Shown here: piece after piece, positions 42,706 to 61,699 of the stretch
Position numbering within the stretch: the first letter of the stretch is position 1
How the letters are laid out: every line of letters starts with the position of its first letter
Origin: Paracoccaceae bacterium
GTDB lineage: Bacteria > Pseudomonadota > Alphaproteobacteria > Rhodobacterales > Rhodobacteraceae
Direction of reading: 5' to 3'
Length of the DNA stretch: 64,000 bases
Assembly (NCBI GenBank): GCA_021741245.1
Contig: JAIOYF010000002.1
Span: 62,001-126,000 of the forward strand
Translations under genes and position numbers: made by a program
Notes under the pieces: model-generated
Database searches by the model: none
The model's input: the letters and a program-made list of their open reading frames with translations, nothing else
Told to the model about the DNA's origin: nothing

Positions 42706-43557
42706 CTAGCGGGCAAGGTCCAACAACAGCCGGGACAAGGCGCTGGCAGGGTCGGCAAGATCAAGGATGACATCAAAGTGGTTGCGATCAGCGATCCTGT
42801 GGACCGCCCAGCCTGTGGCCTTGCCAAAAGCATCTGACTGGCGGTGAAAGCCCATCCGTTCGCCCGTGCCCGCCGCCAGAGCCAAGGCCCCGCGCAATCC
42901 TTGCGGCGGGTGGCGCAGGGGGCTTTGGGCAACTTCGGCATCTGTAAAGCGCATCCAGTCCTGCACATGGCTTGCCGCCAGCGGGGCCAGTTCAAACAGG
43001 CCCGACACCGGCAGACAGCCGTGCAGCGGCTGCTCTGGCAGGCCCATCGCGGCTTGCCAACCCGGTTGCGCCACGGCGGCGGCAAGGTGGCCACCCGCCG
43101 ATGACCCGGTTACCGTGATCCGCGTGCGATCAAGGCCAAGGGCTTCGGCATTGTGCCAAAGATAGGCAATCGCACGACGGCTGTCGGCGATGATGTCGGT
43201 GATGCTGGCATCGGGGGCCAGACGGTAATCGGGCACCGCGCAGGCAATGCCTTGCGCCGCCAGCATCGGGGCGGCAAAAGCCGATTGGCCGCGCGACAGG
43301 GCCCGCCAATAGCCCCCGTGGATAAACACCACAACAGGGCGCAACGCACCTGCAACCGTCCCGAAAAGGTCAAGCTTCAGGCCCGTCTCTTGGCAAAATG
43401 TCAGCCCCGCGCGCGTATTGGGCAGGTCATGAGCCACATCTGACAGGCTTTGATACAGCCCGATGATACGGGCAAACTCTGCCTCACTGACAGTGGCGCG
43501 GGCGGTGTAATCGGCGTCCAGTTGCGCTGCGGGCAAGGTGGCTTCGTTGGTCAGCAT
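42706..43557 (-). CDS. Alpha/beta hydrolase (kynurenine formamidase-like esterase)
   Basis: Esterase/lipase-type hydrolase of 283 residues. The oxyanion motif is FIHGGYWRALSR, the nucleophile lies in VTGSSAGGHLAAA, and the catalytic histidine probably in RIADRNHFDVI near residue 262. HGGYW with this layout is typical of bacterial and animal arylformamidases and related carboxylesterases. It is coupled to the dehydrogenase gene by TGATG and is the last gene of the operon containing 3-hydroxyanthranilate dioxygenase, which makes an amide or formyl-amine substrate attractive, though unproven. Confidence 0.83.
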   Translation of the reverse strand: MLTNEATLPAAQLDADYTARATVSEAEFARIIGLYQSLSDVAHDLPNTRAGLTFCQETGLKLDLFGTVAGALRPVVVFIHGGYWRALSRGQSAFAAPMLAAQGIACAVPDYRLAPDASITDIIADSRRAIAYLWHNAEALGLDRTRITVTGSSAGGHLAAAVAQPGWQAAMGLPEQPLHGCLPVSGLFELAPLAASHVQDWMRFTDAEVAQSPLRHPPQGLRGALALAAGTGERMGFHRQSDAFGKATGWAVHRIADRNHFDVILDLADPASALSRLLLDLAR

Positions 43558-44336
43558 CAGATCACCACAGGGTTGGCTCGGTTCTCGATCAGACGCACAA
43601 GCGACAGCGCGGTGAGGGCCGAGGATTTGGGGTTATGGGCAAGGGCAAGGTTGTCCAGCGTGATCTCCATCCGGCCAAAATCACCCGTGGCAAGAACGCG
43701 GTGGCGATTGGCCGTGGCGGCAGGATCGGCAATCAGGCGCAGCGTGGTGGCATCGGGACCAAGACCTGCCAGCGCCGTGATCATCGCCACATTGGCATTT
43801 TGCGGAAACTGCTGCGCCGCCTGTCTGGCGGACCCTTCGAAAAAGCAATGGGGTGCAGTCAGGCCACCCAGATCGCACAGCGTTTCGGCCTTGGTGCCCC
43901 GCCACGCGAGGGCGGGTTTCGTCACCTCATGCGTGACCTGCGCCAAGGGCAAGCGTGCGGCGGCCGACAGCGCGTCGATCCCCCCCAATGCGCCGGGGGG
44001 GATCAGGATTTGGCGCCGATGCGCGCGGGCGATGGCCTGCAAATGGTCCAGCACTCCGGCCTCGGCAAAGGCCGAGGTGGAGGCGGGGGCGAAATCTGCC
44101 CCGGCGGCCAAGGCGGCCTCTCCCCATGGCATCACGGCGGCGCGGCCTGCCACCTCGACCACAAGATCGGGGCGCAGGGATGCAAGTTCGGCAGGCGAGG
44201 TGATCACCGCATGCGGCAGTTGGCGGCTGACATCGCGCACGGCAACGGCCACCAGATCCACCGGGGCCCCGCGCGCCGCCAACAGCCGCGCCACCTCGGT
44301 GCCGATTGCGCCCCAACCGATCAGAACCAACCGCAT
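43557..44336 (-). CDS. Aspartate dehydrogenase-like oxidoreductase
   Basis: NAD(P)-binding protein of 259 residues. N-terminal Rossmann loop LIGWGAIGTEVARLLAARG; the C-terminal DUF108 domain has the family motif GSARQAAQQFPQNANVAM. Known members oxidise L-aspartate to iminoaspartate (NadX in NAD synthesis) or run in reverse. Here it is set between a LIV-type transporter and a hydrolase in an operon with a ring-cleaving dioxygenase, so a related amino acid or imine formed in a catabolic route is at least as likely. No nadA or nadC is nearby. Start and upstream stop overlap as TGATG. Confidence 0.82.
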   Translation of the reverse strand: MRLVLIGWGAIGTEVARLLAARGAPVDLVAVAVRDVSRQLPHAVITSPAELASLRPDLVVEVAGRAAVMPWGEAALAAGADFAPASTSAFAEAGVLDHLQAIARAHRRQILIPPGALGGIDALSAAARLPLAQVTHEVTKPALAWRGTKAETLCDLGGLTAPHCFFEGSARQAAQQFPQNANVAMITALAGLGPDATTLRLIADPAATANRHRVLATGDFGRMEITLDNLALAHNPKSSALTALSLVRLIENRANPVVI

Positions 44337-45037
44337 CAAACGCCCACCCAAGCCTGAACGCGGTCATGGTCGCGGGTCAGATCGTCGCTCGTCCCCGTCC
44401 AGACGGTGGTGCCCTTTTCCAAAATGAAATGCCGGTCGGCCAAGCGTTTGAGCACTGAAAACGTTTTGTCGATCAACAAGATGGACTGACCATCGCGCTT
44501 CAGCCTTTCCACAACATGCCAGATCTCGGTGCGGATCACCGGGGCCAGACCCTCCGTCGCCTCATCCAAGATCAACAGGCGGGGGTTGGTCATCAATGCC
44601 CGCCCCACGGCCAGCATCTGCTGTTCGCCGCCCGAGAGCGTGGCTGCCATCTGGCCTGCCCGCTCGCCCAAGCGGGGGAAAAGGTCGTAGATGCGGGCCA
44701 ACGTCCATGGCGATTTTGCGCCCAGCCGGTTCGCCGCCGTTGCCACCAGATTTTCGCGCACCGTCAGTGTCGGAAAGATCTGCCGCCCCTCTGGCACAAG
44801 GCCAAAGCCAAGGCGTGCGACCTTTTCCGGCGCAAGGCCACCAATGGCGCGGCCGTCATAGTCCACAGACCCGCCACGCGGGGGCAAAAGCCCCATGATG
44901 GTGCGCACCGTTGTGGTTTTGCCCATGCCGTTGCGGCCCATCAGCGTGACCACTTCGCCGTCCTTGATATCAAGTGAAATGTCGAACAGCACCTGCGACG
45001 CGCCATAGCCTGCCTGTAGATTTTGCACGCTCAGCAT
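44336..45037 (-). CDS. LIV-type ABC transporter ATPase (LivF-like)
   Basis: Cytoplasmic ATPase, 233 residues, of the branched-chain amino acid/amide/aromatic acid importer family. Walker A is GRNGMGKTT, the signature LSGGEQQML, and the Walker B LLILDEATEGLAP; the short form without a C-terminal extension and TEGLAP mark LivF. It overlaps the LivG gene by one base (TGATG). Confidence 0.92.
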   Translation of the reverse strand: MLSVQNLQAGYGASQVLFDISLDIKDGEVVTLMGRNGMGKTTTVRTIMGLLPPRGGSVDYDGRAIGGLAPEKVARLGFGLVPEGRQIFPTLTVRENLVATAANRLGAKSPWTLARIYDLFPRLGERAGQMAATLSGGEQQMLAVGRALMTNPRLLILDEATEGLAPVIRTEIWHVVERLKRDGQSILLIDKTFSVLKRLADRHFILEKGTTVWTGTSDDLTRDHDRVQAWVGV

Positions 45038-45786
45038 CAGGCCTCCTCCTCGCCCAGATAGGCTTCGCGCACCGTAGGGTTGGCGCGGATGTCATCGGCA
45101 TTTCCGGCAGCGATGATGCGACCATAGACCAGCACGGAAATCCGGTCGGCCAAGGCAAAGACCGCTTCCATATCATGTTCGACCAACAGCATCGCACATT
45201 CGCCCCGCGCGGCAAGAAGTGCCTCGATCATCTGTTGACTTTCCACATGGCCCAGCCCCGCCATCGGTTCATCCAGCAGCAAAAGCCGGGGGCGTTGCGA
45301 CAGGGCCATCGCCAGTTCCAACTGCTTTTTCTCGCCATGTGCCAGATCAGCGACAGTCACATCGGCGCGGTCGCCAAGGGCTGAATCTTTCAGAATAGTC
45401 GCGACCTCGTCCCAAATCTCGGCCCGCTTTGCGGCGCGGTCAAAGATGCGAAAATTGCCCCCCTCACGCGCCTGCACCGCCAGACCAAGGTTCTCGCGCA
45501 CCGTCATGTCATCCAAAAGCGAAGTGATCTGAAACGTCCGCCCCAGCCCAAGGGCCACGCGATCCGCCGGGGGCAGGCGCGTGATGTCGCGGCCCGCAAG
45601 GTGGATTTGGCCTGCGTTGGGGGTGATCTCGCCGCAAATCTGATTGATCAGGGTCGATTTACCCGCACCATTGGGGCCGATCAGGGCATGTATCTCGCCC
45701 GTATCCACCGTCAGGCTGACATGATCGGTGGCCGTCAACCCGCCAAAGGTTTTCAGCAGCCCCGAAATCTCCAGCACATGGGTCAT
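45037..45786 (-). CDS. LIV-type ABC transporter ATPase (LivG-like)
   Basis: Partner ATPase, 249 residues: Walker A GPNGAGKSTLINQI, signature ADLAHGEKKQLELAMAL, Walker B LLLLDEPMAGLG, and a C-terminal BCA_ABC_TP_C tail (ANPTVREAYLGEEEA) characteristic of LivG. The ATG overlaps the stop of the preceding permease gene as ATGA, so a longer N-terminus reading into that gene is not real. ADLAHGEKK is the degenerate signature usual for LivG. Confidence 0.92.
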   Translation of the reverse strand: MTHVLEISGLLKTFGGLTATDHVSLTVDTGEIHALIGPNGAGKSTLINQICGEITPNAGQIHLAGRDITRLPPADRVALGLGRTFQITSLLDDMTVRENLGLAVQAREGGNFRIFDRAAKRAEIWDEVATILKDSALGDRADVTVADLAHGEKKQLELAMALSQRPRLLLLDEPMAGLGHVESQQMIEALLAARGECAMLLVEHDMEAVFALADRISVLVYGRIIAAGNADDIRANPTVREAYLGEEEA

Positions 45787-46754
45787 CCCTTCCCCCCCAG
45801 CCTGCGCAGCAAGGCCATCAGCCCGCCCTTGGAGGTCATCACCACCAACAGCAAGATAATGCCGACGGGCAGCATCCAATGTTCGGTATAGCGGGCAAGG
45901 GTGGTTTCCAGCGTGAACAGAACCCCTGCCCCGATGAAGGGACCGGCCAAAGTGCCCACACCGCCAAGGATCACCATGATCATCAATTCGCCCGACCGTG
46001 ACCAATGCATCATGTCGGGCGAGGCAAAGCGCAGGAAATTGACCATCAGCGCCCCCGCCAGCCCCGCCCCCATGCCCGACAGGACAAAGGCATACAGCTT
46101 GTAGCGATAGGTCGAGATGCCCATGGCCGCCATGCGGCGTTCGTTCTGGCGGATGCCCGCGATGATCTGGCCAAAAGAGGATTGCACAAGGCGGCGCAGA
46201 AACAGGTAATAGGCGGCGGCAAGTCCCAAAACGACCCAGTAAAGCGTGGCCTTGTCGCGCATGTTCAGGCCCGGCAAAGAATTGGTGCGGCGCACCATGA
46301 TGCCATCCTCACCGCCATAGGTTTTCAGACTGATGAACAGGAAAAAGAACATCTGCGCAAAGGCCAGTGTGATCATGATGAACTGCACGCCGCCGGTGCG
46401 CAGCGACATCGCCCCCACAAGGGCGGCGGCAAGGCCCGCAATCAAAATCGCGGCGGGCAGCGTGATCAGCATCTGGTCGGTTCCGGGGATCAGCCCAAGA
46501 AACGCGGTTCCGGCGTCGAAATGGTGATACATGATCCCCACGACATAGCCGCCGATCCCAAAAAACGCCGCATGGCCAAAGCTGACCATCCCGCCGTAGC
46601 CCAAGATGAAATTCAGGCTGGCCGCCGCCATCCCATAGATCAGGGCCTGACCGACCAGCCGGGTCCAACTGGCCTGTCCGGTCAACTCGGCGGCAAAGGG
46701 CACAAGGGCCAAGACCACAAAGACCGCCGCCAGAATGATATGCTCGCGCTTCAT
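45783..46754 (-). CDS. LIV-type ABC transporter permease (LivM-like)
   Basis: Inner-membrane permease of about 323 residues and eight or more hydrophobic segments. LivM marks are LNFILGYGGMVSFGHAAFFGIGGYV and GGVGTLAGPFIGAGVLFTLE. The start chosen precedes KREHIILAAV and comes just after the livH-like stop; longer readings begin inside that gene. Confidence 0.92.
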   Translation of the reverse strand: MKREHIILAAVFVVLALVPFAAELTGQASWTRLVGQALIYGMAAASLNFILGYGGMVSFGHAAFFGIGGYVVGIMYHHFDAGTAFLGLIPGTDQMLITLPAAILIAGLAAALVGAMSLRTGGVQFIMITLAFAQMFFFLFISLKTYGGEDGIMVRRTNSLPGLNMRDKATLYWVVLGLAAAYYLFLRRLVQSSFGQIIAGIRQNERRMAAMGISTYRYKLYAFVLSGMGAGLAGALMVNFLRFASPDMMHWSRSGELMIMVILGGVGTLAGPFIGAGVLFTLETTLARYTEHWMLPVGIILLLVVMTSKGGLMALLRRLGGKG

Positions 46755-46758
46755 CGGA

Positions 46759-47673
46759 TCACCCTTGCGCCGCAAACAGGCCGCGCGGGCGGACCAGCAG
46801 CACAAGCGCCATCATCAGATAGATGCCCATCGACGAAATCCCGACGCCCAGCGCCTGCGCCTCGGGTCCCGGCATCGCCTGTTGCAAAAGACCGGGCAAA
46901 AAGGCGCGCAGCATGGTGTCGCACATGCCCAGCACGATCCCGGCCACAAACGCACCTTTGACCGACCCGACCCCGCCAATCACCACCACGACAAAGGTCG
47001 CCAGAATGATCTCATCCCCCATGCCCACCTGCACCGACACGATGGGCGAGGCCATGACCCCAGCCAGCCCGGCCAGCAGCGCACCCAAGCCAAAGATCGC
47101 GGTGTAAAGGCCTTGAATATTCACGCCCAAGGCGCGCACCATCTGGCGATTGCTGGCCCCCGCCCGCACCAGCATGCCAATGCGGGTCTTGTTGATCAGC
47201 AGATACAGACCCACAGCCACCGCCAGACCGACGGCAATCACGAACAGCCGAAAGGTCGGATAAGGCAGGCCGGGAATGATCTCGATCGATCCCGAAAACA
47301 CCTCGGGCAGCGATGTGAACAGCGGCTGGCGGCCAAAGATCAGAACGGTGGATTGGTTGAAGATCAAGATCAGGGCAAAGGTGGCCAGAACCTGATCCAG
47401 ATGGTCGCGCGCATAAAGACGGCGCATCACGCCAAGCTCGACAACAATCCCCACGATGGCAGAGGCCGCCAAGCCTGCCAGCAGCCCGCCCCAGAAAGAC
47501 CCGGTCTGTATGGAAACCCAGGCCCCCGCGAATGCGCCAACCATATAGAACGCGCCATGGGCCAGATTGATCACGCCCATGATGCCGAAAATCAGTGTCA
47601 GGCCAGCGGCCAGCAAGAACAGCGTCACGCCATATTGCAACCCGTTCAAAAGCTGCTCGAACAAAAGAATCAT
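46759..47673 (-). CDS. LIV-type ABC transporter permease (LivH-like)
   Basis: Permease of 304 residues, opening LLFEQLLNGLQYGVTLFLLAAGLTLIFGIMGVINLAHGAFYMVGA, which is the LivH signature, with the C-terminal GGVGSVKGAFVAGIVLG. It forms the heterodimeric channel with the LivM-like protein. It lies downstream of livK beyond a terminator-like hairpin, which may lower its expression relative to the binding protein. Confidence 0.92.
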   Translation of the reverse strand: MILLFEQLLNGLQYGVTLFLLAAGLTLIFGIMGVINLAHGAFYMVGAFAGAWVSIQTGSFWGGLLAGLAASAIVGIVVELGVMRRLYARDHLDQVLATFALILIFNQSTVLIFGRQPLFTSLPEVFSGSIEIIPGLPYPTFRLFVIAVGLAVAVGLYLLINKTRIGMLVRAGASNRQMVRALGVNIQGLYTAIFGLGALLAGLAGVMASPIVSVQVGMGDEIILATFVVVVIGGVGSVKGAFVAGIVLGMCDTMLRAFLPGLLQQAMPGPEAQALGVGISSMGIYLMMALVLLVRPRGLFAAQG

Positions 47674-47728
47674 CCGCTCGTCCCCCTTTGGCGCAGGCGG
47701 TCTGTGAATTTGGGGTGCGCTGAAAAAC

Positions 47729-47756
47729 GGGCCGGAAAGGCGTTCCGATCCGGCCC
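47729..47756 (-). terminator. Terminator or attenuator between livK and livH
   Basis: On the minus strand GGGCCGGA and TCCGGCCC enclose a 12-base loop and are followed by GTTTTT, a near-ideal intrinsic terminator. It starts only ten bases past the livK stop. Because the rest of the transporter operon lies beyond it, partial read-through is expected, a common way to make more binding protein than permease. Confidence 0.75.
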
Positions 47757-47765
47757 GATGTCAGA

Positions 47766-48905
47766 TCACATCTTGCAGTCTGCGGCGTAAACGTCGCCCG
47801 CTGCTTCGATGATCTTTTCCTTGGTGACGATCACCGGATTGCCCGCCGAATCGGCCTCAATCGCGGTCAGGTACCAGTCCTGAACCGGGTGCTGGTTTGC
47901 GCCAAAGGCAAAGTTGCCACGGGTAGAGGCGAAGTCGGCAGCCTTCATCGCGGCCTGCAATGCGGCCACGTCTTCCCCACCCGCCGTGTTCAGCGCGCCA
48001 CCGATCAAAAGGCCGGTGTCATAGGCCTGCTGGGCATAGGTCGTCAGCGGGGTTTCGGGGAAGGCGGCGGCCCATGCGGCAACCATGGCCTTGGAGGCCG
48101 CGTTGTCGAAATCGGCATTCCAATGGGTGGTGCCGGTCAGACCCACGGCAGCGGGGCCAACAGCCTTGAGGATCACGCTGTCATAGGATGGCTCCGACAG
48201 CACCATCGGAATGCTGCCCAGCAAACCCGCCTGCTGATATTGCTTGAGAAAGGCAATCCCCTGCCCACCGGGGTGGAACTGGAACACCACTTGCGCGGCC
48301 TTGTCGCGGATCTGCGCCATTTCGCTGGCAAAGTCAGATTGTTCGACGCCCGTATAGATCTCGGTCACTTCGCCGCCGAACTCCCGCGTGAACCCGGCGA
48401 TGGCGTCTTTGCCGGCCTGATAGTTGGGGGCCAAGGCGACGGCAGTGGTGTAGCCAAGTTTCTTTGCCGCCGCACCCGAGGCTTCGTGCAGGCTGTCATT
48501 TTGCCAGCTGACCACAAAGTAATTCGGATGGCACTTTGCCCCGGCCAGCCCCGAGGGTGCTGCATTCGGGCTGACATAGATCGCGCCAGCATCGGTGACT
48601 TCGGGAACCACGGCCCCCGAGACGTTCGAGAACACGATGCCGGTCAGCAGCGTGATACCCTCTTCGTTCAGCATCCGGTCGGCAATCTGCACGCCCGTAT
48701 TGGGATCGCGGCCATCGTCTTCAACGACCAACTCATAGGCCGCGCCCGTCGCATCAAGGCCCAGCTTCAGACCGTTGCGAATTTGTTCGCCCAGATAGCC
48801 TGCTGGCCCTGACAATGTGGTGATCACGCCGATCTTGGTGCCTTCGGCAAAGGAGGGAACCGCCAAGGCCACCAACACACTGGCAGATGTCAAAAGTCTT
48901 TTCAT
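47766..48905 (-). CDS. LIV-type periplasmic substrate-binding protein
   Basis: Binding protein of 379 residues (Peripla_BP_6). Signal peptide KRLLTSASVLVALAVPSFAEG, then KIGVITTLSGPAGYLGEQIRNGLKLGLD, typical of LivK/amide/aromatic-acid binders. A conserved cysteine pair is not obvious (one Cys in AGAKCHPNYF and one at the C-terminus, DCKM). GGGAGAA lies six bases before the ATG. Close relatives bind branched-chain amino acids, but many in Rhodobacteraceae and Bradyrhizobiaceae bind benzoate-like acids; the neighbouring ring dioxygenase favours an aromatic ligand here. Confidence 0.88.
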   Translation of the reverse strand: MKRLLTSASVLVALAVPSFAEGTKIGVITTLSGPAGYLGEQIRNGLKLGLDATGAAYELVVEDDGRDPNTGVQIADRMLNEEGITLLTGIVFSNVSGAVVPEVTDAGAIYVSPNAAPSGLAGAKCHPNYFVVSWQNDSLHEASGAAAKKLGYTTAVALAPNYQAGKDAIAGFTREFGGEVTEIYTGVEQSDFASEMAQIRDKAAQVVFQFHPGGQGIAFLKQYQQAGLLGSIPMVLSEPSYDSVILKAVGPAAVGLTGTTHWNADFDNAASKAMVAAWAAAFPETPLTTYAQQAYDTGLLIGGALNTAGGEDVAALQAAMKAADFASTRGNFAFGANQHPVQDWYLTAIEADSAGNPVIVTKEKIIEAAGDVYAADCKM

Positions 48906-48957
48906 GTTGTTCTCCCGGTTTTGTTGCAATCTTGTTTTTGTTTTTCGTCATAGTGGC

Positions 48958-48981
48958 AGGCTTGAAAATTATTTCAAGCCT
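48958..48981. promoter_or_regulatory. Perfect palindrome between the dioxygenase gene and livK
   Basis: Ten-base arms AGGCTTGAAA and its exact complement around ATTA. It begins eight bases past the dioxygenase stop and 53 bases before the livK start. No T-run follows on the minus strand, so it is more like an operator than a terminator; TTGAAA inside it and CTATGA about 18 bases on could form an internal promoter. Confidence 0.5.
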
Positions 48982-48988
48982 AAAACAT

Positions 48989-49552
<564 letters not shown>

Positions 49553-50509
49553 TCAGGCCAGTTTCAGGCCACAGGTTTCAAACGCAAGTTTTGTCTGGGT
49601 TTTCTCGGCCTCGGTCAGGTCCAGACAGGGCGGGCGCACCCTTCCCCCGGTCTGACCCAAAAGATCTTGCCAGTATTTCTGGTGCGCATGGGGTTTTTCC
49701 GCAGGACGGGTGGATTTCAGCGCATGGCGCACGGGATCAAGGCTATCGCGGATCGCCCGCGCCTCCTCTGCACGGCCTGCAAAGGCCGCGTCGGTATAGG
49801 CCCGCATGCGTTTGTCTGCCGCTGTCTGCATCAGATAGGGCGGCGAGGAACACAGATAAAGCCGCCAGTTCAGCTCCACAATATTGTCCAGCCATTCCTC
49901 TTCCGACGCTGTGGACACGATCATCCGGTCGCTGGCCAGTTTGGTCAGCTCCACATACATGTCGCGGGGGGTGGAATACTTGATGGCAACCACGGTTTCG
50001 ATATCGGCCAGTCGGTTGCACAACTGCGGACTCATCAGATAGCCGCTGTCAGGATGCGACCACAGCGCGATACCGATATCCACCTGTGCCGCAATCGTCT
50101 CATAATAGCGGATCAGCGTTTCGTCCTGCGCCTTGTAAAAATGCAGAATCGGCGCATGAACCACGATGTAATCGGCCCCGCAGGACTGCGCATGTCTTGC
50201 CAGATCAATCACCACATCCATGTTCTGATCCGAACACGACATGATGGTTTGCGCCCGGCCATTTGCCGCCCTGACCGCCAGATCAAAGGCGCGTTTGCGT
50301 TCATCGACCGACATGGCGAAAAACTCGCCCTGCTTGCCCGCGATGAAAAAGCCGTCGATCCCCAGATCTTCGATCCAGTGGGTCATATTGGCGGCAAAGC
50401 CCTCCTCATCAATCGACAGATCCTGACGAAACGGCATCAACCCTGCCGCCCAAATGCCCTTCATATGGGCAAAGGCATGGGATTTCGCGTCTTTGCGGCT
50501 GTAGTTCAT
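49553..50509 (-). CDS. Dihydrodipicolinate synthase-family aldolase
   Basis: Class I (Schiff-base) lyase of the DHDPS/N-acetylneuraminate lyase barrel, 318 residues. The catalytic lysine is Lys177 in VVAIKYSTPRDMY. The usual GTTGE loop reads AGKQGEFFAMS, lacking the two threonines used in dipicolinate synthesis, and the Tyr motif region reads VVHAPILHFYKAQDE, so it is unlikely to be DapA. Related hydratase-aldolases split pyruvate from aromatic ring-fission products. It overlaps the aldehyde dehydrogenase gene as ATGA, which suggests that it hands an aldehyde to that enzyme or follows it. Confidence 0.85.
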   Translation of the reverse strand: MNYSRKDAKSHAFAHMKGIWAAGLMPFRQDLSIDEEGFAANMTHWIEDLGIDGFFIAGKQGEFFAMSVDERKRAFDLAVRAANGRAQTIMSCSDQNMDVVIDLARHAQSCGADYIVVHAPILHFYKAQDETLIRYYETIAAQVDIGIALWSHPDSGYLMSPQLCNRLADIETVVAIKYSTPRDMYVELTKLASDRMIVSTASEEEWLDNIVELNWRLYLCSSPPYLMQTAADKRMRAYTDAAFAGRAEEARAIRDSLDPVRHALKSTRPAEKPHAHQKYWQDLLGQTGGRVRPPCLDLTEAEKTQTKLAFETCGLKLA

Positions 50510-51972
50510 GCTGTGCCTCCGGCAACGGTCGGCTCGGTTTCCAAGTCCATTCGGTGCGAGATGGTCTTGGTCACGGTATAGTGGTGCAAGCCGTCCGCCC
50601 CACCCTCGCGGCCATGGCCTGAGTATTTCACCCCGCCAAACGGCACCTCGGCCACGCTTGCCTCCAGCGTGTTGATCGACAGGTTTCCGGCCTCGATCTC
50701 GTTGGTCAAACGATCCACATTCGCTGCCGAATGGGTAAAGCCATAGGCTGCAAGGCCAAAGGGCAGCGCATTGGCGCAGGAAATCGCCTCATCCAGCCCA
50801 GACACCGGGTTGATGATGGCAATCGGCCCAAAGGGTTCTTCGCGCATCACGCGGGCGTCGTCAGGCACCTCGGCCAGCACGGTGACGGGATAGAAATAGC
50901 CCGGCCCATTAGGGCGCGCGCCGCCACACAGCACCTTTGCCCCCTTGGCGCGGGCATCCTCCACCAGCGCCTCCATCGCCGCAATTCGGCGCGCATTCGC
51001 CAGCGGCCCCATCTCGGTGCCGGGGTCAAGGCCATCACCAAACCGCACCTGTGCGGCGCGCTCGGCAAAGGCCTTGGCAAAGGTCGCATAGGATGCTTCT
51101 GCCACGAAAAACCGCGTGGGCGATGTGCAGACCTGCCCGGAATTGCGCGCCTTGCGCACCGCCGACATCCGCCCCGCCGCATGGGCATCGACATCGTCAC
51201 ACACGATCACCGGCGCATGGCCCCCCAGCTCCATCAGCACAGGCGTCATCGACCGCGCCGCCATCTCGGTCAGATGAATCCCCACCGCCGTTGATCCGGT
51301 AAAGGCGACCACGCGGATGCGGTCTTGTGGGATCAAATAGCTGGAAATCTCGGCCGGATTGCCGAAGACAAGGTTCAGCACACCGGCAGGCAGCCCCGCA
51401 TCCTGAAACGCCCGTGCGATATGGATCGCGCCCGCCGGGGTTTCCTCGGCGGCCTTTAGGATGATCGAACATCCCGAGGCAAGCGCGCCCGCAATCTTGC
51501 GCGCAGGCTGGCTCATCGGGAAGTTCCATGGTGAAAAACCCGCAACGATCCCCGCCGGTTCCCGCACCACTGTATAGCGGATGCCGGGGGCCGACGGGAC
51601 CACATGACCATAAAGCCGCTGCGCCTCGCCTGCGTCCCATTCAAAGAACTCTGCCCCCCGGATCACCTCCATCCGGGCCTGCACCAAGGGCTTGCCGTTT
51701 TCCATGGTGATCGAGGGCGCAATCTGCGGCCCCCGTTCACGCAGCAGATTTGCCGCCCGCGTGATGATCTGCGCCCGCACCCTTGGCGCGGTGCGCGACC
51801 AGAGCGTGAAGCCACGCTCGGCCGCGTCCAAGGCATCATCCAGATCACTTTGGCGGGCAATGGGCAGGCGGCCAATCTCTTGCTCAGTGGCCGGGTTCAG
51901 CACAGGCAGGGTGTCTGACGTCTTGCGCCATGTGTTGTCGATGAAAAGGTTCAGATCAGGGTATGTGGTCAT
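50506..51972 (-). CDS. NAD(P)-dependent aldehyde dehydrogenase
   Basis: Aldehyde dehydrogenase of 488 residues: Asn150 in GFSPWNFPMSQP, Glu248 in LMELGGHAP and the nucleophile Cys282 in NSGQVCTSPTRF. It resembles succinate-semialdehyde and 2-aminomuconate-semialdehyde dehydrogenases. As the first gene of the operon with 3-hydroxyanthranilate dioxygenase it may oxidise the semialdehyde formed after ring cleavage, but a decarboxylase would be needed first in the known pathway. It is divergent from a LysR gene. Confidence 0.9.
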   Translation of the reverse strand: MTTYPDLNLFIDNTWRKTSDTLPVLNPATEQEIGRLPIARQSDLDDALDAAERGFTLWSRTAPRVRAQIITRAANLLRERGPQIAPSITMENGKPLVQARMEVIRGAEFFEWDAGEAQRLYGHVVPSAPGIRYTVVREPAGIVAGFSPWNFPMSQPARKIAGALASGCSIILKAAEETPAGAIHIARAFQDAGLPAGVLNLVFGNPAEISSYLIPQDRIRVVAFTGSTAVGIHLTEMAARSMTPVLMELGGHAPVIVCDDVDAHAAGRMSAVRKARNSGQVCTSPTRFFVAEASYATFAKAFAERAAQVRFGDGLDPGTEMGPLANARRIAAMEALVEDARAKGAKVLCGGARPNGPGYFYPVTVLAEVPDDARVMREEPFGPIAIINPVSGLDEAISCANALPFGLAAYGFTHSAANVDRLTNEIEAGNLSINTLEASVAEVPFGGVKYSGHGREGGADGLHHYTVTKTISHRMDLETEPTVAGGTA

Positions 51973-52043: not shown

Positions 52044-52068
52044 TGGATATTCATATTTGGAATAGCCA
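52044..52068. promoter_or_regulatory. Candidate LysR operator
   Basis: A near-perfect palindrome TGGaTATTC-N7-GAATAgCCA that includes the LysR-type T-N11-A core. It ends three bases before the LysR start codon and about 70 bases before the divergent aldehyde dehydrogenase start, fitting autoregulation and control of the catabolic operon. Confidence 0.55.
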
Positions 52069-52071
52069 AGA

Positions 52072-53028
52072 ATGAGCCAACTTCCCCTGCTTGAGACTCA
52101 CCTGTCCCTTCGGCACCTGAAGTTGATCGACGCCATCGCCCGTGAAGGCACGCTACTTGGTGCGGCGCAAAGCGTTGGTCTGACGCAATCCGCCGTCACA
52201 AAGGCCCTGCAAGAGGCAGAGGCCACCACCCAAACCCGCCTATTTGACCGCACAAATCGCGGCGTGCATCCAACGCAGGCGGGCGAGGTTCTGGTGGCCC
52301 ATGCCCGCCTTGTGCTGACCCAGTTGCGACACGCGGGGCAGGAACTGGAGGATCTGCGCTCTGGCTCGGGTGGCCGGGTCGCGGTGGGCGTTCTGGTGTC
52401 GGCTGCCGTGTCGATCCTGCCCTCGGCCATCGCCGCCGTCCGCCAACAGCGGCCCAATCTGGCGGTCAAGGTGATTGAGGGCACCAATGACGTGCTGATG
52501 CCCCTGCTGCGCTCCGGCGAGATTGATCTGGTCATTGGCCGCCTGCCTGCCCTTTCCAGTGGCAGCGGCATCGCCGAAGAAGTGTTGTGCGAGGATTTCG
52601 CCCAGATCGTGGTGCGCCGGGGCCATCCGCTGGTGCAAAGACCGGGCCTGACCTTGGCCGATCTGATGGACCAGCCTTGGATATTGCCGCGTCAGGAAAC
52701 CAGTCTGCGCAGCCAGATTGACGAAGGGTTTCGCCAGATGGGCCTGCGCGCCCCGGTCAATATCGTGGAATCCGTGTCGATCCTGACCAATCTGGCCCTT
52801 GTTCTGAACGCTGATTATCTGGTGGTCTGGCCCGTTCAACTGGCCCGGTTCGAGGTGCATCTGGGCTTGGTTCAGGCGCTGGACATCCCCTTGCCGTCAA
52901 CCCACCGCCCCATCGGCATCTCTACCCGTCGCGACGCCCGCCTGTCGCCTGCCGCCGATACCTTGATCGCGGCGCTGCGCCAATCGGCAAAACAGCACGA
53001 GGTGACCTTGGATCTGCCCGTCACATAG
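52072..53028 (+). CDS. LysR-family transcriptional regulator
   Basis: Activator or repressor of 318 residues. The N-terminal winged helix is LSLRHLKLIDAIAREGTLLGAAQSVGLTQSAVTKALQEAE (residues 11 to 50); the remaining part is the two-lobe effector domain (GRVAVGVLVSAAVSILPSAI onward). It is divergent from the aldehyde dehydrogenase gene and so the likely controller of that operon; the effector is probably the imported compound or an intermediate. Confidence 0.9.
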   Translation: MSQLPLLETHLSLRHLKLIDAIAREGTLLGAAQSVGLTQSAVTKALQEAEATTQTRLFDRTNRGVHPTQAGEVLVAHARLVLTQLRHAGQELEDLRSGSGGRVAVGVLVSAAVSILPSAIAAVRQQRPNLAVKVIEGTNDVLMPLLRSGEIDLVIGRLPALSSGSGIAEEVLCEDFAQIVVRRGHPLVQRPGLTLADLMDQPWILPRQETSLRSQIDEGFRQMGLRAPVNIVESVSILTNLALVLNADYLVVWPVQLARFEVHLGLVQALDIPLPSTHRPIGISTRRDARLSPAADTLIAALRQSAKQHEVTLDLPVT

Positions 53029-53906: not shown

Positions 53907-55025
53907 ATGGCCAGAGCACATGAAAACCACCGCGAGGATGTGGTGGGGCGCGCGAATGTCGAAGATACGCCGGAACTGCTGGCCTATTACGACGAGTTGG
54001 CAGAGCTGGACGCAGGCGCGCTTTGGACGGTTGCCAACAAGATCGAGCCTTGGCAGCCCAAGTCGCAATCGGTGCCGGTCGTCTGGCGCTACAAGGATCT
54101 GCGCGCGCATGTCTTGCGCTCGGTCGATCTGGTCACGCCGGAAAAGGCGGGGCGGCGGGTGATCTATCTGAACAATCCGGGGCGGCAGGATGTGTCGGCG
54201 GCGGTGGGCTGGCTTTACGCGGGCTTGCAGGTGATGAACCCCGGCGAAAAGGCGGGCGCGCATCGCCATTCCGCCAGTGCGGTCCGCTTTATCATGGAGG
54301 GCAGCGGGGCCTATACAGTCGTGGATGGCCACAAGATGACGCTGGGCCGCAACGACTTTGTGCTGACCCCGAACGGCACATGGCATGAGCATGCGGTGGA
54401 ACCCGACGGCACGCCCTGCATCTGGCAAGACGGGCTGGACATTCCCTTTGTCAACGCGATGGAGGCGAATTTCTATGAAGTTCACCCGCAGGGCACGGAA
54501 CCCGTGGCCTTTCCCGTTGATGACATGACCAAGAAATGGGGCAACCCCGGTCTGCGCCCGTCAGATGATTGGTCCAAACCCTATAGCCCGATGTTCAAAT
54601 ATGAATGGGCCCCGACCTATGCTTCGCTGCAAACCTATGCACAAAGCTGCGAGGGCTCTGCGTTTGACGGACATTTGCTCGAATATGTGAACCCGGCGAC
54701 CAATGGCCCGGTGATGCCCACCATGGGGGCCTCCATGCAGATGCTGCGCCCCGGCCTGCACACGCGGGCGCATCGCCATACCGGCAGCTACCTTTACCAC
54801 TGCGCCAAAGGGGCGGGCTATTCGGTGATCGACGGCAAGCGCTATGACTGGTCCGAACGTGACATCTTTTGCGTGCCATCCTGGGCTTGGCATGAGCATG
54901 TGAACACCTCCGCCACCGAGGATGCGGTGCTGTTTTGCCTGTCCGATCTGCCGGTGATGCGGGCGCTGGGTCTTTATCGCGAACAGGCTTACGCCGAAAA
55001 TGACGGCTTTCAGCCGCTAAAGTAA
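53907..55025 (+). CDS. Gentisate 1,2-dioxygenase-type cupin
   Basis: Iron(II) ring-cleaving dioxygenase of 372 residues with two cupin domains. The catalytic first cupin has GAHRHSASAVRFIMEGSGAYTVVDG and TWHEHAVE for the histidine ligands; the second has TRAHRHTGSYLYHCAKGAGYSV and WAWHEHVN. Length and order match gentisate and salicylate 1,2-dioxygenases. Gentisate would give maleylpyruvate, the natural substrate for the next gene's family. GGGAG lies seven bases before the ATG. Other 2-hydroxybenzoates are possible substrates. Confidence 0.88.
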   Translation: MARAHENHREDVVGRANVEDTPELLAYYDELAELDAGALWTVANKIEPWQPKSQSVPVVWRYKDLRAHVLRSVDLVTPEKAGRRVIYLNNPGRQDVSAAVGWLYAGLQVMNPGEKAGAHRHSASAVRFIMEGSGAYTVVDGHKMTLGRNDFVLTPNGTWHEHAVEPDGTPCIWQDGLDIPFVNAMEANFYEVHPQGTEPVAFPVDDMTKKWGNPGLRPSDDWSKPYSPMFKYEWAPTYASLQTYAQSCEGSAFDGHLLEYVNPATNGPVMPTMGASMQMLRPGLHTRAHRHTGSYLYHCAKGAGYSVIDGKRYDWSERDIFCVPSWAWHEHVNTSATEDAVLFCLSDLPVMRALGLYREQAYAENDGFQPLK

Positions 55026-55034
55026 GGATACCCG

Positions 55035-55955
55035 ATGAAACTTGTAACCTATCGCGCCTCAGTCGAGGCATCTGCCCGTTTGGGCGTCATCCTTGGCGAT
55101 CTGGTGGTGGATGCGGCCCTGTTGGGCGAGGCCTTTGGCGAGGCGATCCCTGACAGCATGTTGGGCCTGATCGACGCCGGGCGGCCCGGTCTTGCCGCGC
55201 TATCGGCGCTGATGGCAAAGGCGGGGAATGTACCCCCAATCGGCACCGCCACAGCCCTTGCCAACGTGACGCTGCTGGCCCCGATCCCGCGCCCGCGCAA
55301 GAACATCTTTGGCATCGGGCTGAACTATGTCGAACATGTCGCCGAAAGTGCGGCAGCGCTGGACACTGACCCGAACCTGCCCAAACAGCCGGTGATCTTT
55401 TCAAAGCCGCCAACCGCAGTCATCGGGCCGAATGCGCCCATCGAGCACAACAAGAAGATCACCCAGCAGTTGGATTGGGAGGTGGAACTGGCCGTCATCA
55501 TCGGTACCACCGCCCGCCGGGTGACGCGGGCCGAGGCGCTGGCCCATGTCTTTGGCTATTCCGTGATGATCGACGTCTCGGCCCGCGATTGCCGCCGCGC
55601 CGGGCAATGGATCTTTTCCAAGGGGCAAGACAGTTTCGCCCCCTTTGGTCCCTGTATCGTGACAGCGGATGACATTCCCGATCCGCAAAAGCTTGACCTG
55701 TGGCTCACGCTGAACGGGGTGGAAAAACAGCGCTCGAACACGGCCAATATGCTGTTCAAGGTCGATGAGCTGATTGCAGATATCTGCCAAGGCATCACGC
55801 TGGAACCGGGTGATATCATCGCCAGCGGCACCCCCGCCGGTGTGGGTGCGGGCCGAACCCCGCAAGAATGGATGTGGCCGGGCGATGTGGTGGTGGCGAC
55901 CGTCGAAGGTATCGGCACCCTGCGCCATTCCATCGTCGACGTAACCCCGGAGTGA
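55035..55955 (+). CDS. Fumarylacetoacetate hydrolase family protein (acylpyruvase type)
   Basis: Divalent-metal hydrolase of 306 residues. Family marks: KNIFGIGLNYVEHV, DWEVELAVIIGTTARRV with acidic metal ligands, and GQDSFAPFGPCIVTADDI. In gentisate routes such enzymes hydrolyse maleyl- or fumarylpyruvate to pyruvate plus maleate or fumarate. No maleylpyruvate isomerase gene is seen in the window, so direct maleylpyruvate hydrolysis is a reasonable guess. It is nine bases after the dioxygenase gene. Confidence 0.88.
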   Translation: MKLVTYRASVEASARLGVILGDLVVDAALLGEAFGEAIPDSMLGLIDAGRPGLAALSALMAKAGNVPPIGTATALANVTLLAPIPRPRKNIFGIGLNYVEHVAESAAALDTDPNLPKQPVIFSKPPTAVIGPNAPIEHNKKITQQLDWEVELAVIIGTTARRVTRAEALAHVFGYSVMIDVSARDCRRAGQWIFSKGQDSFAPFGPCIVTADDIPDPQKLDLWLTLNGVEKQRSNTANMLFKVDELIADICQGITLEPGDIIASGTPAGVGAGRTPQEWMWPGDVVVATVEGIGTLRHSIVDVTPE

Positions 55956-55959
55956 TCCC

Positions 55960-56883
55960 ATGACCTTTACTGCTGCCGTCGTGCAAATGGCCTCCAACCC
56001 CAATGACCCACTGGCCACGGCACAGGCCGCATGTGCCCGCTTGCGCGAGGCGGCAGCCAAGGGGGCCAAACTGGTGGTCTTCCCCGAGGCGCTGATCGGC
56101 GGCTATCCCAAGGGCGCCAGCTTTGGTGCGCCCATCGGCATGCGCAAACCCGAGGGCCGCGCCGCCTTTGCCCGCTATCACGCGGCGGCGATTGATCTGG
56201 ATGGTCCAGAGGTGGCCCTTTTGGCCGAGGCCACGCGCGATACCGGGGCCTTCGCCGTGGTCGGTGTGATCGAACGCGATGGCGCAACGGTCTATTGCAC
56301 GGTGCTGTATTTCGACGGCGAAAAGGGACTGGTCGGCAAGCATCGCAAACTGATGCCAACGGCGGCTGAACGGCTGATCTGGGGCTTTGGCGATGGCTCC
56401 ACCCTGCCGGTGTTCGAAACCGAACTGGGCACCATTGGGGCTGTGATCTGCTGGGAAAACTATATGCCAGCCCTGCGGATGCATATGTATCACCAAGGCG
56501 TCAGCCTGTATTGTGCCCCCACCGCAGATGACCGCGACACATGGCTGCCCACCATGCAGCACATCGCACTGGAGGGGCGGACTTTCGTGCTGACCGCCTG
56601 CCAGTATATCACCCGCGCGGCCTTTGCGCCCGAGCATGAAAGTGCGCTTGGCGATGATCCGGACACCGTGATGATGCGCGGCGGGTCGGCCATCATCGGG
56701 CCCTTGGGCAAGGTGCTGGCTGGCCCCGATTTCTCGGGCGAGACAATCCTTTACGCCCAGATCGACCCTGATGAGGTGATGAAGGCCAAGTATGATTTCG
56801 ACGTGACCGGCCACTATGCCCGCCCCGACGTGTTTCAACTGACCGTGGACACGCGGCCCAAGAAAGCCGTGCAGGAAATCTGA
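55960..56883 (+). CDS. Nitrilase
   Basis: Carbon-nitrogen hydrolase of 307 residues with the triad Glu43 (VFPEALIGGYPKG), Lys130 (KHRKLMPTAAERLIWGFGDG) and Cys164 (AVICWENYMP). CWEN and the HRKLMPTAAERLIWG segment are those of true nitrilases, which turn nitriles into acids plus ammonia, rather than of amidases. A nitrile-derived hydroxybenzoate could feed the gentisate-type dioxygenase of the same cluster. Its stop overlaps the next start by one base. Confidence 0.9.
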   Translation: MTFTAAVVQMASNPNDPLATAQAACARLREAAAKGAKLVVFPEALIGGYPKGASFGAPIGMRKPEGRAAFARYHAAAIDLDGPEVALLAEATRDTGAFAVVGVIERDGATVYCTVLYFDGEKGLVGKHRKLMPTAAERLIWGFGDGSTLPVFETELGTIGAVICWENYMPALRMHMYHQGVSLYCAPTADDRDTWLPTMQHIALEGRTFVLTACQYITRAAFAPEHESALGDDPDTVMMRGGSAIIGPLGKVLAGPDFSGETILYAQIDPDEVMKAKYDFDVTGHYARPDVFQLTVDTRPKKAVQEI

Positions 56884-57506
56884 TGCGTTGGGATATGGAC
56901 AAGGTTGCCACGCCCATTGCCTACAAGCTTTTGGCGGCAACCGTGATGCCGCGCCCGATTGCTTGGGTGGTCAGCCAAGATGACGCGGGTCAGGTCAACG
57001 CAGCCCCCTATTCGTTTTTCAACGTCATGGGATCGGCCCCGCCCACGGTGGCCTTGGGCATGCTGGCCGACCCTGCGCGCGGGGTCAAAGACAGCGCGTG
57101 CAATATCTTGCAAACCGGGGAATTCGTCGTTTGTCTGGTGCCAGAGCGGTTGGCGGCCGCGGCCAATCTGACAGCGATTGACGCGCCGCGCGGGGTGAAT
57201 GAACTGGTGCTTGCAGGCCTTGCCACTACAGCGTCCGTGCATATCAAACCGCCCCGCATCAGCGACAGCCCGGTCGCCTTTGAATGCCGGACCCATACAA
57301 CGGTGGAAACCGGCCCCAACCAGTTTGTGGTGATCGGGCAGGTCATCGCGGTTCACATTGACGACCGCTTCATTCTGGACGCCGACCGCGCCCATATCGA
57401 CACCCCCGCCCTTGATCTGGTGGCGCGGTCCTATGGCTCTGACTATGTGCGCAGCCACGATACGTTTCAGCTGCACCGCCCCACGTGGGCCGGGCGTGAG
57501 GAATAG
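56883..57506 (+). CDS. Flavin reductase family (FMN-binding split barrel) protein
   Basis: FMN-binding protein of 207 residues with the DIM6/NTAB fold: MPRPIAWVVSQDDAGQVNAAPYSFFNVMGSAPPTVALG near the N-terminus and FECRTHTTVETGPNQFVVIGQVIAVHID. Members give reduced flavin to two-component monooxygenases or act on their own. No monooxygenase component is next to it; the luciferase-like enzyme at the other end of the window is not an obvious partner. Coupled to the nitrilase gene by TGATG. Confidence 0.87.
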   Translation: MRWDMDKVATPIAYKLLAATVMPRPIAWVVSQDDAGQVNAAPYSFFNVMGSAPPTVALGMLADPARGVKDSACNILQTGEFVVCLVPERLAAAANLTAIDAPRGVNELVLAGLATTASVHIKPPRISDSPVAFECRTHTTVETGPNQFVVIGQVIAVHIDDRFILDADRAHIDTPALDLVARSYGSDYVRSHDTFQLHRPTWAGREE

Positions 57507-58336: not shown

Positions 58337-58466
58337 CTATGCCCTTTGTGATATATACAGCCAGAGGCCGTTTCCCTATCGTTTTAAGAATTGACGGCAT
58401 ATGGCCCGGTGCGCAAGTGCATTCAGATGCTCCACGCCGTGCGACTATGCCGGAACGGGGAAGATG

Positions 58467-59618: not shown

Positions 59619-59654
59619 CGGAGCCTGAGCAAATCCAACAAGGGAATGAGTCAC

Positions 59655-60809: not shown

Positions 60810-60834
60810 CGGGGAACGGAAAAGGAAACAGACG

Positions 60835-61692
60835 ATGGCCATGACCCAGACACGGGGCCGGGCGCTGCTGCTGACACCAGCCGCGCTGTGGTATGCAGCC
60901 CTTTTGCTGCTGCCGCTGGCTGTCGTCTTGATCTTTTCCTTCGGAGAGCGCACCCCCATCGGCGGCTACGCCCCGGGGTTCACGCTTGCGCAATACGCGA
61001 ATTTGCCCGCCCGGATGGCGGCGTTTCGCAACACGCTGACCCTTGCGCCAGTGGGCACCTTGGCCGCGCTGCTGATCGCCTATCCCCTGGCCTATTTTCT
61101 GGCGGTCAGGGTCTCGGTGCGCTGGAAGACCCTTCTTCTGGTGCTGGTGATCGTGCCATTCTGGACATCGATCCTGATCCGCTCCTATGCGTGGATCTTC
61201 TTGTTGGGGGGCAAGGGCCTGCCTGCCCTTCTGGCATCCATCGGGTTCGAAGATATTCGCCTGCTCAACTCCCCCTTCGCGGTGCTGGTGGGAATCGTCT
61301 ATGGCTATCTGCCGCTTATGGTCTTTCCGATCTATGTGGCGCTGGAGAAACTTGACCTGCGCTTGTTGGAGGCCGCGGCCGACCTTGGCGCACCGCCATG
61401 GCGCAGCTTTGTGCAAATCACCCTGCCCTTGTCGATGCCGGGGGTTCTGACCGGGTCGATGCTGGTGTTCATCCTTTTGATGGGAGAGTTCCTGATCCCC
61501 GCGATCCTTGGCGGCGGCAAGGTCTTCTTTGTCGGCAATGCGCTGGTGGATCTGTTTTTACAGTCGCGCAATTGGCCCTTTGGATCGGCGGTGGCCGTGG
61601 CGCTGGTTGTCATCATGCTGATCACCGTCGCGATCTATACCCGCGTGGTCAAACGCTATGCCGCAGGCCGCGACGACGTGGCCATGATGTGA
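60835..61692 (+). CDS. Polyamine-type ABC transporter permease (PotB-like)
   Basis: Inner-membrane permease of 285 residues with six hydrophobic segments. N-terminal RALLLTPAALWYAALLLLPLAVVLIFSF and the EAA loop LLEAAADLGAPPWRSFVQITLPLSMPG identify it. AAAGGAAA lies eight bases before the ATG; a longer frame begins in the binding-protein gene. It pairs with the permease that follows eight bases later. Confidence 0.9.
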   Translation: MAMTQTRGRALLLTPAALWYAALLLLPLAVVLIFSFGERTPIGGYAPGFTLAQYANLPARMAAFRNTLTLAPVGTLAALLIAYPLAYFLAVRVSVRWKTLLLVLVIVPFWTSILIRSYAWIFLLGGKGLPALLASIGFEDIRLLNSPFAVLVGIVYGYLPLMVFPIYVALEKLDLRLLEAAADLGAPPWRSFVQITLPLSMPGVLTGSMLVFILLMGEFLIPAILGGGKVFFVGNALVDLFLQSRNWPFGSAVAVALVVIMLITVAIYTRVVKRYAAGRDDVAMM

Positions 61693-61699
61693 GGGTGCC

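Follow-up and report, generated by a model that had tools for sequence, protein, structure and literature searches.

Catabolism of 3-hydroxyanthranilate (3-HAA) through its 3,4-dioxygenase (HAO) is described, in the accessible parts of the sources, as running via decarboxylation of the ring-cleavage product 2-amino-3-carboxymuconate semialdehyde (ACMS), both in bacteria (PMC5817917) and in fungi (PMC7842363). In the bacterial 2-nitrobenzoate/3-HAA meta-cleavage pathway (nba/onb), ACMS is first decarboxylated by OnbD, then dehydrogenated by OnbE, and then deaminated by OnbF (PMC5817917, accessible part). The fungal cluster, known from Aspergillus terreus and other Ascomycota, contains an ACMS decarboxylase and a recurrent YjgF-family gene proposed to encode the deaminase (PMC7842363, accessible part), and the accessible part of a review of aromatic-amine degradation gives no other fate of 3-HAA (PMC4539516). 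Here we analyze a ten-gene operon in a 64,000-nucleotide stretch (the window) of a Paracoccaceae genome of 4.2 Mb, where it forms part of a 489-kb contig; judged by this operon, the nearest named relatives are Pseudotabrizicola species (Paracoccaceae). Like nba/onb, the operon would combine ring cleavage to ACMS by HAO with an NAD-type aldehyde dehydrogenase (ALDH), and like the fungal cluster, it groups HAO and a semialdehyde dehydrogenase apparently for catabolism. Unlike both, it has no decarboxylase or deaminase gene among its ten genes, as an earlier note on this DNA had claimed and as profile scans bore out (an aminomuconate deaminase of the RidA family was sought in these ten genes and not in the rest of the genome). 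It encodes instead a protein of the dihydrodipicolinate synthase (DHDPS) family, here called DHDPS-like or aldolase-like, and a protein of the aspartate-dehydrogenase family (AspDH).

We read this operon, with a probability of roughly 0.55, as one form of an alternative, widespread lower route that would divide the seven carbons of 3-HAA into a C4 and a C3 product, with no decarboxylase needed. The earlier note had proposed, as a check, to see whether the dioxygenase, aldolase-like, and dehydrogenase genes co-occur in other genomes, and they do so strongly. A pattern and tblastn scan of 84,980 species genomes gave 269 stretches with a relative of the aldolase-like gene, and the best 80 were kept and examined. 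HAO was present in 79 of these 80 loci; the exception, L041, ends right past the aldolase gene. In a second set of 83 loci (L024–L103 plus L015, L016, and L019, with L019 and L057 being the same locus), genes were called by a codon-usage script and no standard gene finder, and HAO was the next gene downstream of the aldolase gene in 79. Among the 55 loci with long flanks, HAO was found in 55, AspDH in 49, ALDH or a molybdenum hydroxylase in 51, livH and livK in 52, and the hydrolase in 49. We take the core of the system to consist of HAO, the DHDPS-like protein, and either ALDH or a molybdenum hydroxylase in its place, in most cases with AspDH as well.

The association held at larger scales. 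In a class-level sample of 385 genomes (aldolase subfamily called at E<=1e-60, HAO at a match of at least 120 bits, giving 36 genomes), HAO occurred in 22 of the 23 genomes with the aldolase subfamily (the exception being G284) and in 14 of the 362 without it (Fisher p=2e-25, a value that ignores relatedness). The HAO family cut-off of 25 bits was passed by 41 genomes, five of which, at 26–29 bits, were set aside as other cupins. The two genes lay on separate contigs in six of the 22 genomes (G067, G125, G159, G245, G339, and G417), some of these contigs ending near the gene. In a phylum-level sample, the aldolase subfamily was found in 10 of 398 genomes, all within the window's class. Closer to the window, PF06052 (HAO) scored above cut-off in 11 of 101 near relatives, own genome counted. 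The complete operon, regulator included, was present in two same-genus relatives (L022 and L023) and parts of it in a third (L011 and L014); L019 has the operon set with a molybdenum subunit in place of ALDH, and in L015 and L016, a TRAP importer and a DMT-type permease accompany the core (importer types partly assigned by reading). With the operon kept in relatives and HAO found at these frequencies, we rejected chance or a purely local gene neighborhood as an explanation.

A second line of evidence came from the enzyme that the described routes require. As query we used an amidohydrolase adjoining RidA-HAO in Mycetohabitans, which we take to be ACMS decarboxylase. Close relatives (57–59% identity, E of about 1e-121 or better) were found in G361, G061, G235, G182, and G244, each beside HAO (the G235 gene being read with one in-frame TGA). 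None of the 23 aldolase genomes has such a relative, compared with 5 of the 14 HAO-only genomes (p=0.005 over 36 HAO genomes), and six of six further relatives (G002, G009, G012, G025, G041, and G059) gave no decarboxylase match at E<=1e-30. The usual decarboxylase, whose presence elsewhere would have spoken against the earlier note's reading, is missing from the own genome as well, so far as can be told from its DNA: its best match sits on a different contig and shares 29% identity, versus the 57–59% seen beside HAO. These genomes point to two lower routes, never seen together in this small and related sample.

The window dioxygenase is predicted to be an orthodox HAO. It scored above both NCBIfam cut-offs (269.4 vs. 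220 and 255.7 vs. 145.95 bits), its best PDB match is 1yfu (E=1e-72), and it shares 62% identity with HAO from Cupriavidus metallidurans CH34. All active-site residues named in the earlier note (R46, H50, E56, H96, R100, and E111) were found, presumably serving as metal ligands (His/Glu/His) and substrate arginines, and two CxxC pairs lie at 126/129 and 163/166. An HAO tree of 95 of 97 rows (two without a hit of 150 residues were left out) fails to part the two kinds of HAO: four decarboxylase-type HAOs cluster (82/82, rough) on long branches nested within the aldolase-type HAOs. One row, L105, carried the decarboxylase-type label by cluster type, and its stretch lists no decarboxylase gene. 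HAOs 81–82% identical to the window's also occur without the core in L017 (9388–9921) and L018 (9586–10125), adjoining apparent pyrimidine-breakdown genes (read from sequence).

The nearest solved relatives of the window ALDH are named succinate- and alpha-ketoglutarate-semialdehyde dehydrogenases; in the proposed pathway, its substrate would be ACMS. Across relatives, ALDH alternates with the large subunit of a molybdenum hydroxylase. Of the 55 long-flank loci, 41 had ALDH only, 10 the molybdenum subunit only, none both, and 4 neither (at the identity cut used); gene calling in the 83 loci gave 51, 23, 1, and 8, respectively, and tblastn with identity thresholds found ALDH in 50 and the molybdenum subunit in 23 of the 80 loci. 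The gene immediately upstream of the aldolase gene in the 83 loci was ALDH in 27, the molybdenum subunit in 24, and a divergent LysR gene in 26; where LysR adjoins, ALDH, if present, is located elsewhere in the locus. The best NCBIfam match of the molybdenum subunit is a glyceraldehyde dehydrogenase subunit (457.6 bits, under the 790 cut-off). Position and mutual exclusion lead us to guess that one aldehyde-oxidizing enzyme has been replaced by another. Since either would be the alternative partner of the aldolase-like gene, we place oxidation before carbon–carbon cleavage.

The DHDPS-like protein scored under the cut-offs of all seven matching NCBIfam models. Its predicted structure (pLDDT 91, pTM 0.90) is a DHDPS-like barrel with a TM score of about 0.8 to DHDPS entries. 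K177 aligns with the Schiff-base lysine of the matched lyase and is invariant across 30 aligned sequences, as are K59, Q60, W150, and H152. The extra Lys and His side chains would fit a molecule bearing several carboxylates, for example 2-amino-3-carboxymuconate. Tyr133 of DHDPS is the tyrosine expected in class I aldolases of the family, and a Ser/Thr pair is also catalytic; with both replaced here and a DapA score of 81.9 bits against a cut-off of 206.15, we rejected membership in DapA. No hydratase-aldolase of the NahE/PhdJ type was recognized among the matches listed (the best 60 of 123 sequence matches and the best 50 fold matches).

AspDH exceeded the NF009828 cut-off (238.2 vs. 177 bits) and aligned along its length with the solved L-aspartate dehydrogenase 2dc1, as well as with 1h2h/1j5p. 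It has an N-x-H motif at 210–212, the histidine of which we take to be catalytic. Identity with NadX was rejected because the TIGR03855 equivalog score was 138.4 against 206.55 bits. That the dehydrogenase scores as an aspartate dehydrogenase suggests oxaloacetate or iminosuccinate as the C4 product. AspDH was not found in 6 of the 55 long-flank loci, which fits a terminal step replaceable by other enzymes. About 8 kb past the window's end, the own genome has a region (L111 7589–15000; C11 about 133.6–141 kb) with a second AspDH-like gene (223 aa; PF01958, 40 bits), directly adjoined by a further LIV-type importer and by genes resembling aldo-keto reductases (names partly read from sequence).

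From these assignments, we infer the following order of steps. HAO would open the 3-HAA ring to give ACMS, which bears an aldehyde, an enamine, and an adjacent carboxylate. ALDH, or the molybdenum hydroxylase in other lineages, would oxidize the aldehyde to yield 2-amino-3-carboxymuconate, the imine form of which is a 3-substituted iminosuccinate, and would thereby also prevent cyclization to quinolinate. The lysine of the DHDPS-like protein would then bind the C2 imine, the double bond would be hydrated, and a retro-aldol reaction would release a C3 product, malonate semialdehyde, and a C4 product, oxaloacetate or iminosuccinate. Finally, AspDH with NADH would turn the C4 product into L-aspartate, which retains the nitrogen, and would restore the NAD+ spent on the aldehyde. 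A C4 product of this kind would account for the aspartate dehydrogenase in the gene set, and the pairing of ALDH with AspDH would leave NAD+ and NADH balanced. The earlier note had proposed import, deacylation, ring cleavage, aldol cleavage, and oxidation; the catabolic 3-HAA unit is supported, oxidation is now put before cleavage, and the importer and hydrolase are not the heart of the system.

Similar logic is known from protocatechuate 4,5-cleavage (lig), in which the ring-cleavage semialdehyde is oxidized and hydrated and an aldolase then yields two small acids, including oxaloacetate; the lig enzymes are unrelated to those proposed here, and the lig substrate lacks nitrogen. NahE/PhdJ-type hydratase-aldolases combine the DHDPS fold and its lysine with hydration plus retro-aldol cleavage. 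Fold, lysine, and proposed reaction are alike in the window protein, and its motif residues are changed. A fuller version of the pathway, which we put a little below even odds, would convert 3-HAA to aspartate and malonate semialdehyde in a redox-neutral manner without CO2 loss by a new DHDPS-family enzyme class and would be the core common to the catabolism of tryptophan/3-hydroxykynurenine, N-acyl-3-HAA, and 8-hydroxyquinolones of the xanthurenate type.

The importer and hydrolase are exchangeable front ends to this core. In the window, the front end is a LIV-type importer plus a hydrolase, which together would probably supply N-acylated 3-HAA. The importer parts (LivF, LivG, LivM, LivH, and the LivK-type PRK15404) all scored under curated cut-offs, and the best models for all five, likewise under cut-off, are those of the urea importer Urt. 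The hydrolase is 45% identical to the one after the quinolone dioxygenase in L064 (one pair), and its family directly follows the 3-hydroxy-4-quinolone dioxygenase in 14 of 14 gene-called loci that have the dioxygenase. Because quinolone dioxygenases release N-acylanthranilates and CO and this hydrolase family is next in line, the hydrolase is probably an N-acyl amidase, and the N-acylated substrate suggested in the earlier note has become more plausible. In L047, L053, L054, L056, L058, L063, and L080, a metallo-beta-lactamase-fold gene (cluster 19, PF00753) separates HAO from the permease genes of the importer.

Relatives would obtain 3-HAA in two further ways: by way of kynureninase, or through a monooxygenase–dioxygenase pair for quinolones, after which a hydrolase of the window's family would act. 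Kynureninase was found in 5 of the 80 loci, some of them Ensifer-type loci that have an ABC importer of the PF04392 type. A plasmid labeled Phaeobacter inhibens holds HAO, ALDH, kynureninase, TTT and TRAP importers, AspDH, and the aldolase-like gene in one cluster, and a plasmid labeled Roseateles (marked UNVERIFIED) also has a cluster with kynureninase. The other pair, a flavin monooxygenase and a 3-hydroxy-4-oxoquinoline 2,4-dioxygenase, was complete by tblastn in 17 and absent from 63 of the 80 loci; by gene-called clusters, 12 of the 83 loci had both, 3 and 2 had one only, and 66 had neither. The dioxygenase matches 3ibt (E=2e-79), and the monooxygenase is closest to methylhydroxypyridine-carboxylate oxygenase. 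Like the QDO/HOD/AqdC quinolone 2,4-dioxygenase pathways, these relatives have a monooxygenase, a cofactor-free dioxygenase, and then a hydrolase, here joined to the HAO core; this junction would call for an 8-hydroxyquinolone as substrate, for instance xanthurenate or a derivative.

The most complete link to tryptophan is L102, a contig from a metagenome bin whose Acidimicrobiia label may be wrong, with genes for HAO, kynureninase, kynurenine monooxygenase, tryptophan dioxygenase, ALDH, aldolase, and AspDH in this order and in one direction. Its kynureninase scored 398.8 bits (cut-off 246.4), its kynurenine monooxygenase has a best PDB match of E=3e-95, and its tryptophan dioxygenase scored 264.5 bits, under the model cut-off of 390.7. 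L118, from a second genome of the same phylum, carries a partial tryptophan dioxygenase gene at its contig end along with ALDH, aldolase, and AspDH; such genomes numbered 2 of the 396 searched in L102's phylum, one being L102's own. In the genome that contains the window, genes for tryptophan dioxygenase and kynureninase lie on a different contig. With the L102 query at E<=1e-30, kynurenine monooxygenase was found in 0 of 45 genomes, the own genome included, in a search that had no positive control, L102's genome being outside the set.

Two further gene groups adjoin the operon in relatives. An acyl-CoA type cluster, in several genera (L019, L025, L033–L036, L038, L052, and L057), mostly includes a salicylyl-CoA/aminobenzoyl-CoA oxygenase-like gene, with CoA ligase, enoyl-CoA hydratase, acyl-CoA dehydrogenase, and RidA genes varying; it perhaps serves anthranilate from the same source. 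In L051, L061, L070, and L079, the molybdenum-type operon is preceded by genes for a Rieske-type oxygenase pair, an AMP ligase, thiolase-like and SDR-like proteins, and a PF04199 cyclase (mostly read from sequence), a possible further front end.

Several observations weigh against the proposed C4 plus C3 pathway. In the DHDPS-like protein, W150 (in W150-S-H-P) stands at the aldolase tyrosine position and K59/Q60 at the Ser-Thr pair of G-[ST]-T-G-E, invariant in all 30 sequences, and with these residues replaced, the chemistry may be other than a plain aldolase reaction. The exclusion of ALDH by the molybdenum subunit is broken in L078, which holds both, the 51%-identical ALDH being on the other strand. 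The nearest solved relatives of the molybdenum subunit include CO dehydrogenase and quinoline oxidoreductase, and inspection by eye, with no search made, recognized no iron–sulfur or FAD partner gene beside it. HAO occurs with no nearby aldolase-like gene in L017, L018, L020, and L021, so HAO need not imply this route; the L020 genome (G067) does carry the aldolase gene, on a different contig, and in the L021 genome (G061), HAO is accompanied by a close relative of the decarboxylase. The decarboxylase contrast is based on 36 related genomes. Distant relatives of the decarboxylase (29–34% identity) are present in 6 of the 23 aldolase genomes, the own genome included, and the remaining nine of the 14 HAO-only genomes likewise have such distant relatives and neither enzyme in close form; by the identity gap alone, we judge them to be paralogues. 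Last, no gene for handling malonate semialdehyde was recognized in the operon.

The main rival, which we hold to be unlikely, makes the DHDPS-like enzyme a decarboxylase and/or deaminase: with its lysine bound at C2, 2-amino-3-carboxymuconate would be a beta-imino acid and lose its C3 carboxylate as CO2 to give 4-oxalocrotonate and the 2-oxopentenoate route, in a nonhomologous replacement of ACMS decarboxylase and deaminase. This rival draws on the same genes and the same co-occurrence. The DHDPS family includes the decarboxylating dehydratase KdgD and a pyrroline-hydroxycarboxylate deaminase, KdgD is a weak match of the DHDPS-like protein, and the loss of the usual aldolase tyrosine fits too. 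However, neither oxalocrotonate decarboxylase nor the hydratase nor 4-hydroxy-2-oxovalerate aldolase is among the ten genes; such genes went unrecognized in the relatives' recurrent clusters (by eye, with no scan), whereas plasmid clusters of the usual type list them, and AspDH would be left with no role.

Less probable again is that the dioxygenase acts on another aminohydroxybenzoate and that the unit belongs to a different aromatic-amine pathway. Within the stretches examined, 75 of the 80 loci lack kynureninase and 79 lack kynurenine monooxygenase, and a gentisate/5-aminosalicylate dioxygenase relative is encoded next to the window operon. Set against this, the kynureninase loci and the two plasmid types, the L102 kynurenine monooxygenase and tryptophan dioxygenase, and the six intact HAO active-site residues all indicate 3-HAA.

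We consider it very improbable that the operon supplies quinolinate for NAD, with ACMS cyclizing to quinolinate and a NadX-like AspDH feeding the same pathway. HAO and an AspDH relative are both there, and the own genome has no match above the NadB (TIGR00551) cut-off (best 341 vs. 452.75 bits); that model matched 45 of 45 genomes, 4 above cut-off and 41 below, most at about 300–360 bits and maybe paralogues. The ALDH, aldolase-like enzyme, and importers misfit this role, ALDH would compete for ACMS, and AspDH fell below the NadX equivalog cut-off. Weakest of all is the usual route, its ACMS decarboxylase and deaminase genes lying in other parts of the genome. It could draw on RidA-family genes near the operon in 8 of the 83 gene-called loci (though within the acyl-CoA type cluster) and on the distant decarboxylase relatives, and is rejected, as far as the DNA allows, by the want of a close relative in all 23 aldolase genomes, the six matchless further relatives, and the own genome's poor best match.

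The features of the locus are collected below. Reading frames for all ten genes were open at the positions that had been claimed, with families as claimed by profile matches, and the couplings given in the earlier note were there: ALDH/aldolase and livM/livG are joined by ATGA, and livG/livF, livF/AspDH, and AspDH/hydrolase by TGATG.

Features of the 3-HAA operon and its divergent regulator (positions in the window)
Feature	Position	Strand	Evidence and proposed role
NAD-type aldehyde dehydrogenase (ALDH)	50506..51972	-	PF00171 E=3e-147; GQVC and ELGG motifs; proposed ACMS dehydrogenase
DHDPS-family protein	49553..50509	-	PF00701 E=1.6e-31; K177 kept; proposed hydratase/retro-aldolase on 2-amino-3-carboxymuconate
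3-Hydroxyanthranilate 3,4-dioxygenase (HAO/NbaC)	48989..49537	-	above both NCBIfam cut-offs
LivK-type periplasmic binding protein	47766..48905	-	PF13458 E=2e-67
LivH-type permease	46759..47673	-	NCBIfam match
LivM-type permease	45783..46754	-	NCBIfam match
LivG-type ATPase	45037..45786	-	profile matches
LivF-type ATPase	44336..45037	-	NCBIfam match
Aspartate-dehydrogenase family protein (AspDH)	43557..44336	-	NF009828; proposed iminosuccinate/oxaloacetate + NH3 to L-aspartate
Alpha/beta hydrolase	42706..43557	-	PF20434/PF07859; GSSAG at 151; proposed N-acyl-3-hydroxyanthranilate amidase
LysR-type regulator, divergent	52072..53028	+	best NCBIfam match PcaQ, 208.8 bits, under its 303.8 cut-off
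Palindrome TATTC-N7-GAATA, candidate LysR site	52048..52064	unstranded	LysR/ALDH gap

The LysR protein is 82–87% identical in the two same-genus operons (L022 and L023). In seven aligned sequences, the left arm of the palindrome (TATTCC) is conserved in 7/7 and the right arm (GAATA) in 6/7, L035 reading GACTA; the 11-mer TACTTCATTTG that follows it is unchanged in 7/7. The palindrome is a candidate site for this regulator. Promoter and terminator scans did no better than shuffled sequence (2 vs. 2.6 and 10 vs. 10.4).

A neighboring divergent cluster on the plus strand (53907–57506), preceded by a CsiR-like GntR regulator gene (under cut-off), encodes the gentisate/5-aminosalicylate 1,2-dioxygenase relative (under both cut-offs), an FAH-family hydrolase, and a Nit6803-like nitrilase relative (under cut-off). 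A further product of the cluster, 207 aa long, matched no NCBIfam model at E<=1e-20, and the cluster may represent a second pathway for aromatic amines. Beyond it lie an ABC importer, apparently of the spermidine type (read from sequence; 58464–62506), and an SDR gene.

Searching the open-licence literature by title, we found no description of this gene set among the matches listed, and it looks like a new lower branch of aromatic catabolism in which the reaction of one enzyme is assigned by inference. If the proposed pathway is right, it would be a second complete bacterial route to mineralize 3-HAA, a metabolite of the kynurenine pathway, and a bypass of ACMS decarboxylase, which competes with quinolinate formation in the known scheme. 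It would give functions to some hundreds of genes, mostly in Alphaproteobacteria (269 aldolase-like relatives in one collection), that at present carry names such as "dihydrodipicolinate synthase family," "aspartate dehydrogenase," and "NAD-dependent succinate-semialdehyde dehydrogenase." It would also supply a genetic marker for what becomes of tryptophan-derived aromatics and open a new reaction of the DHDPS family to direct testing.

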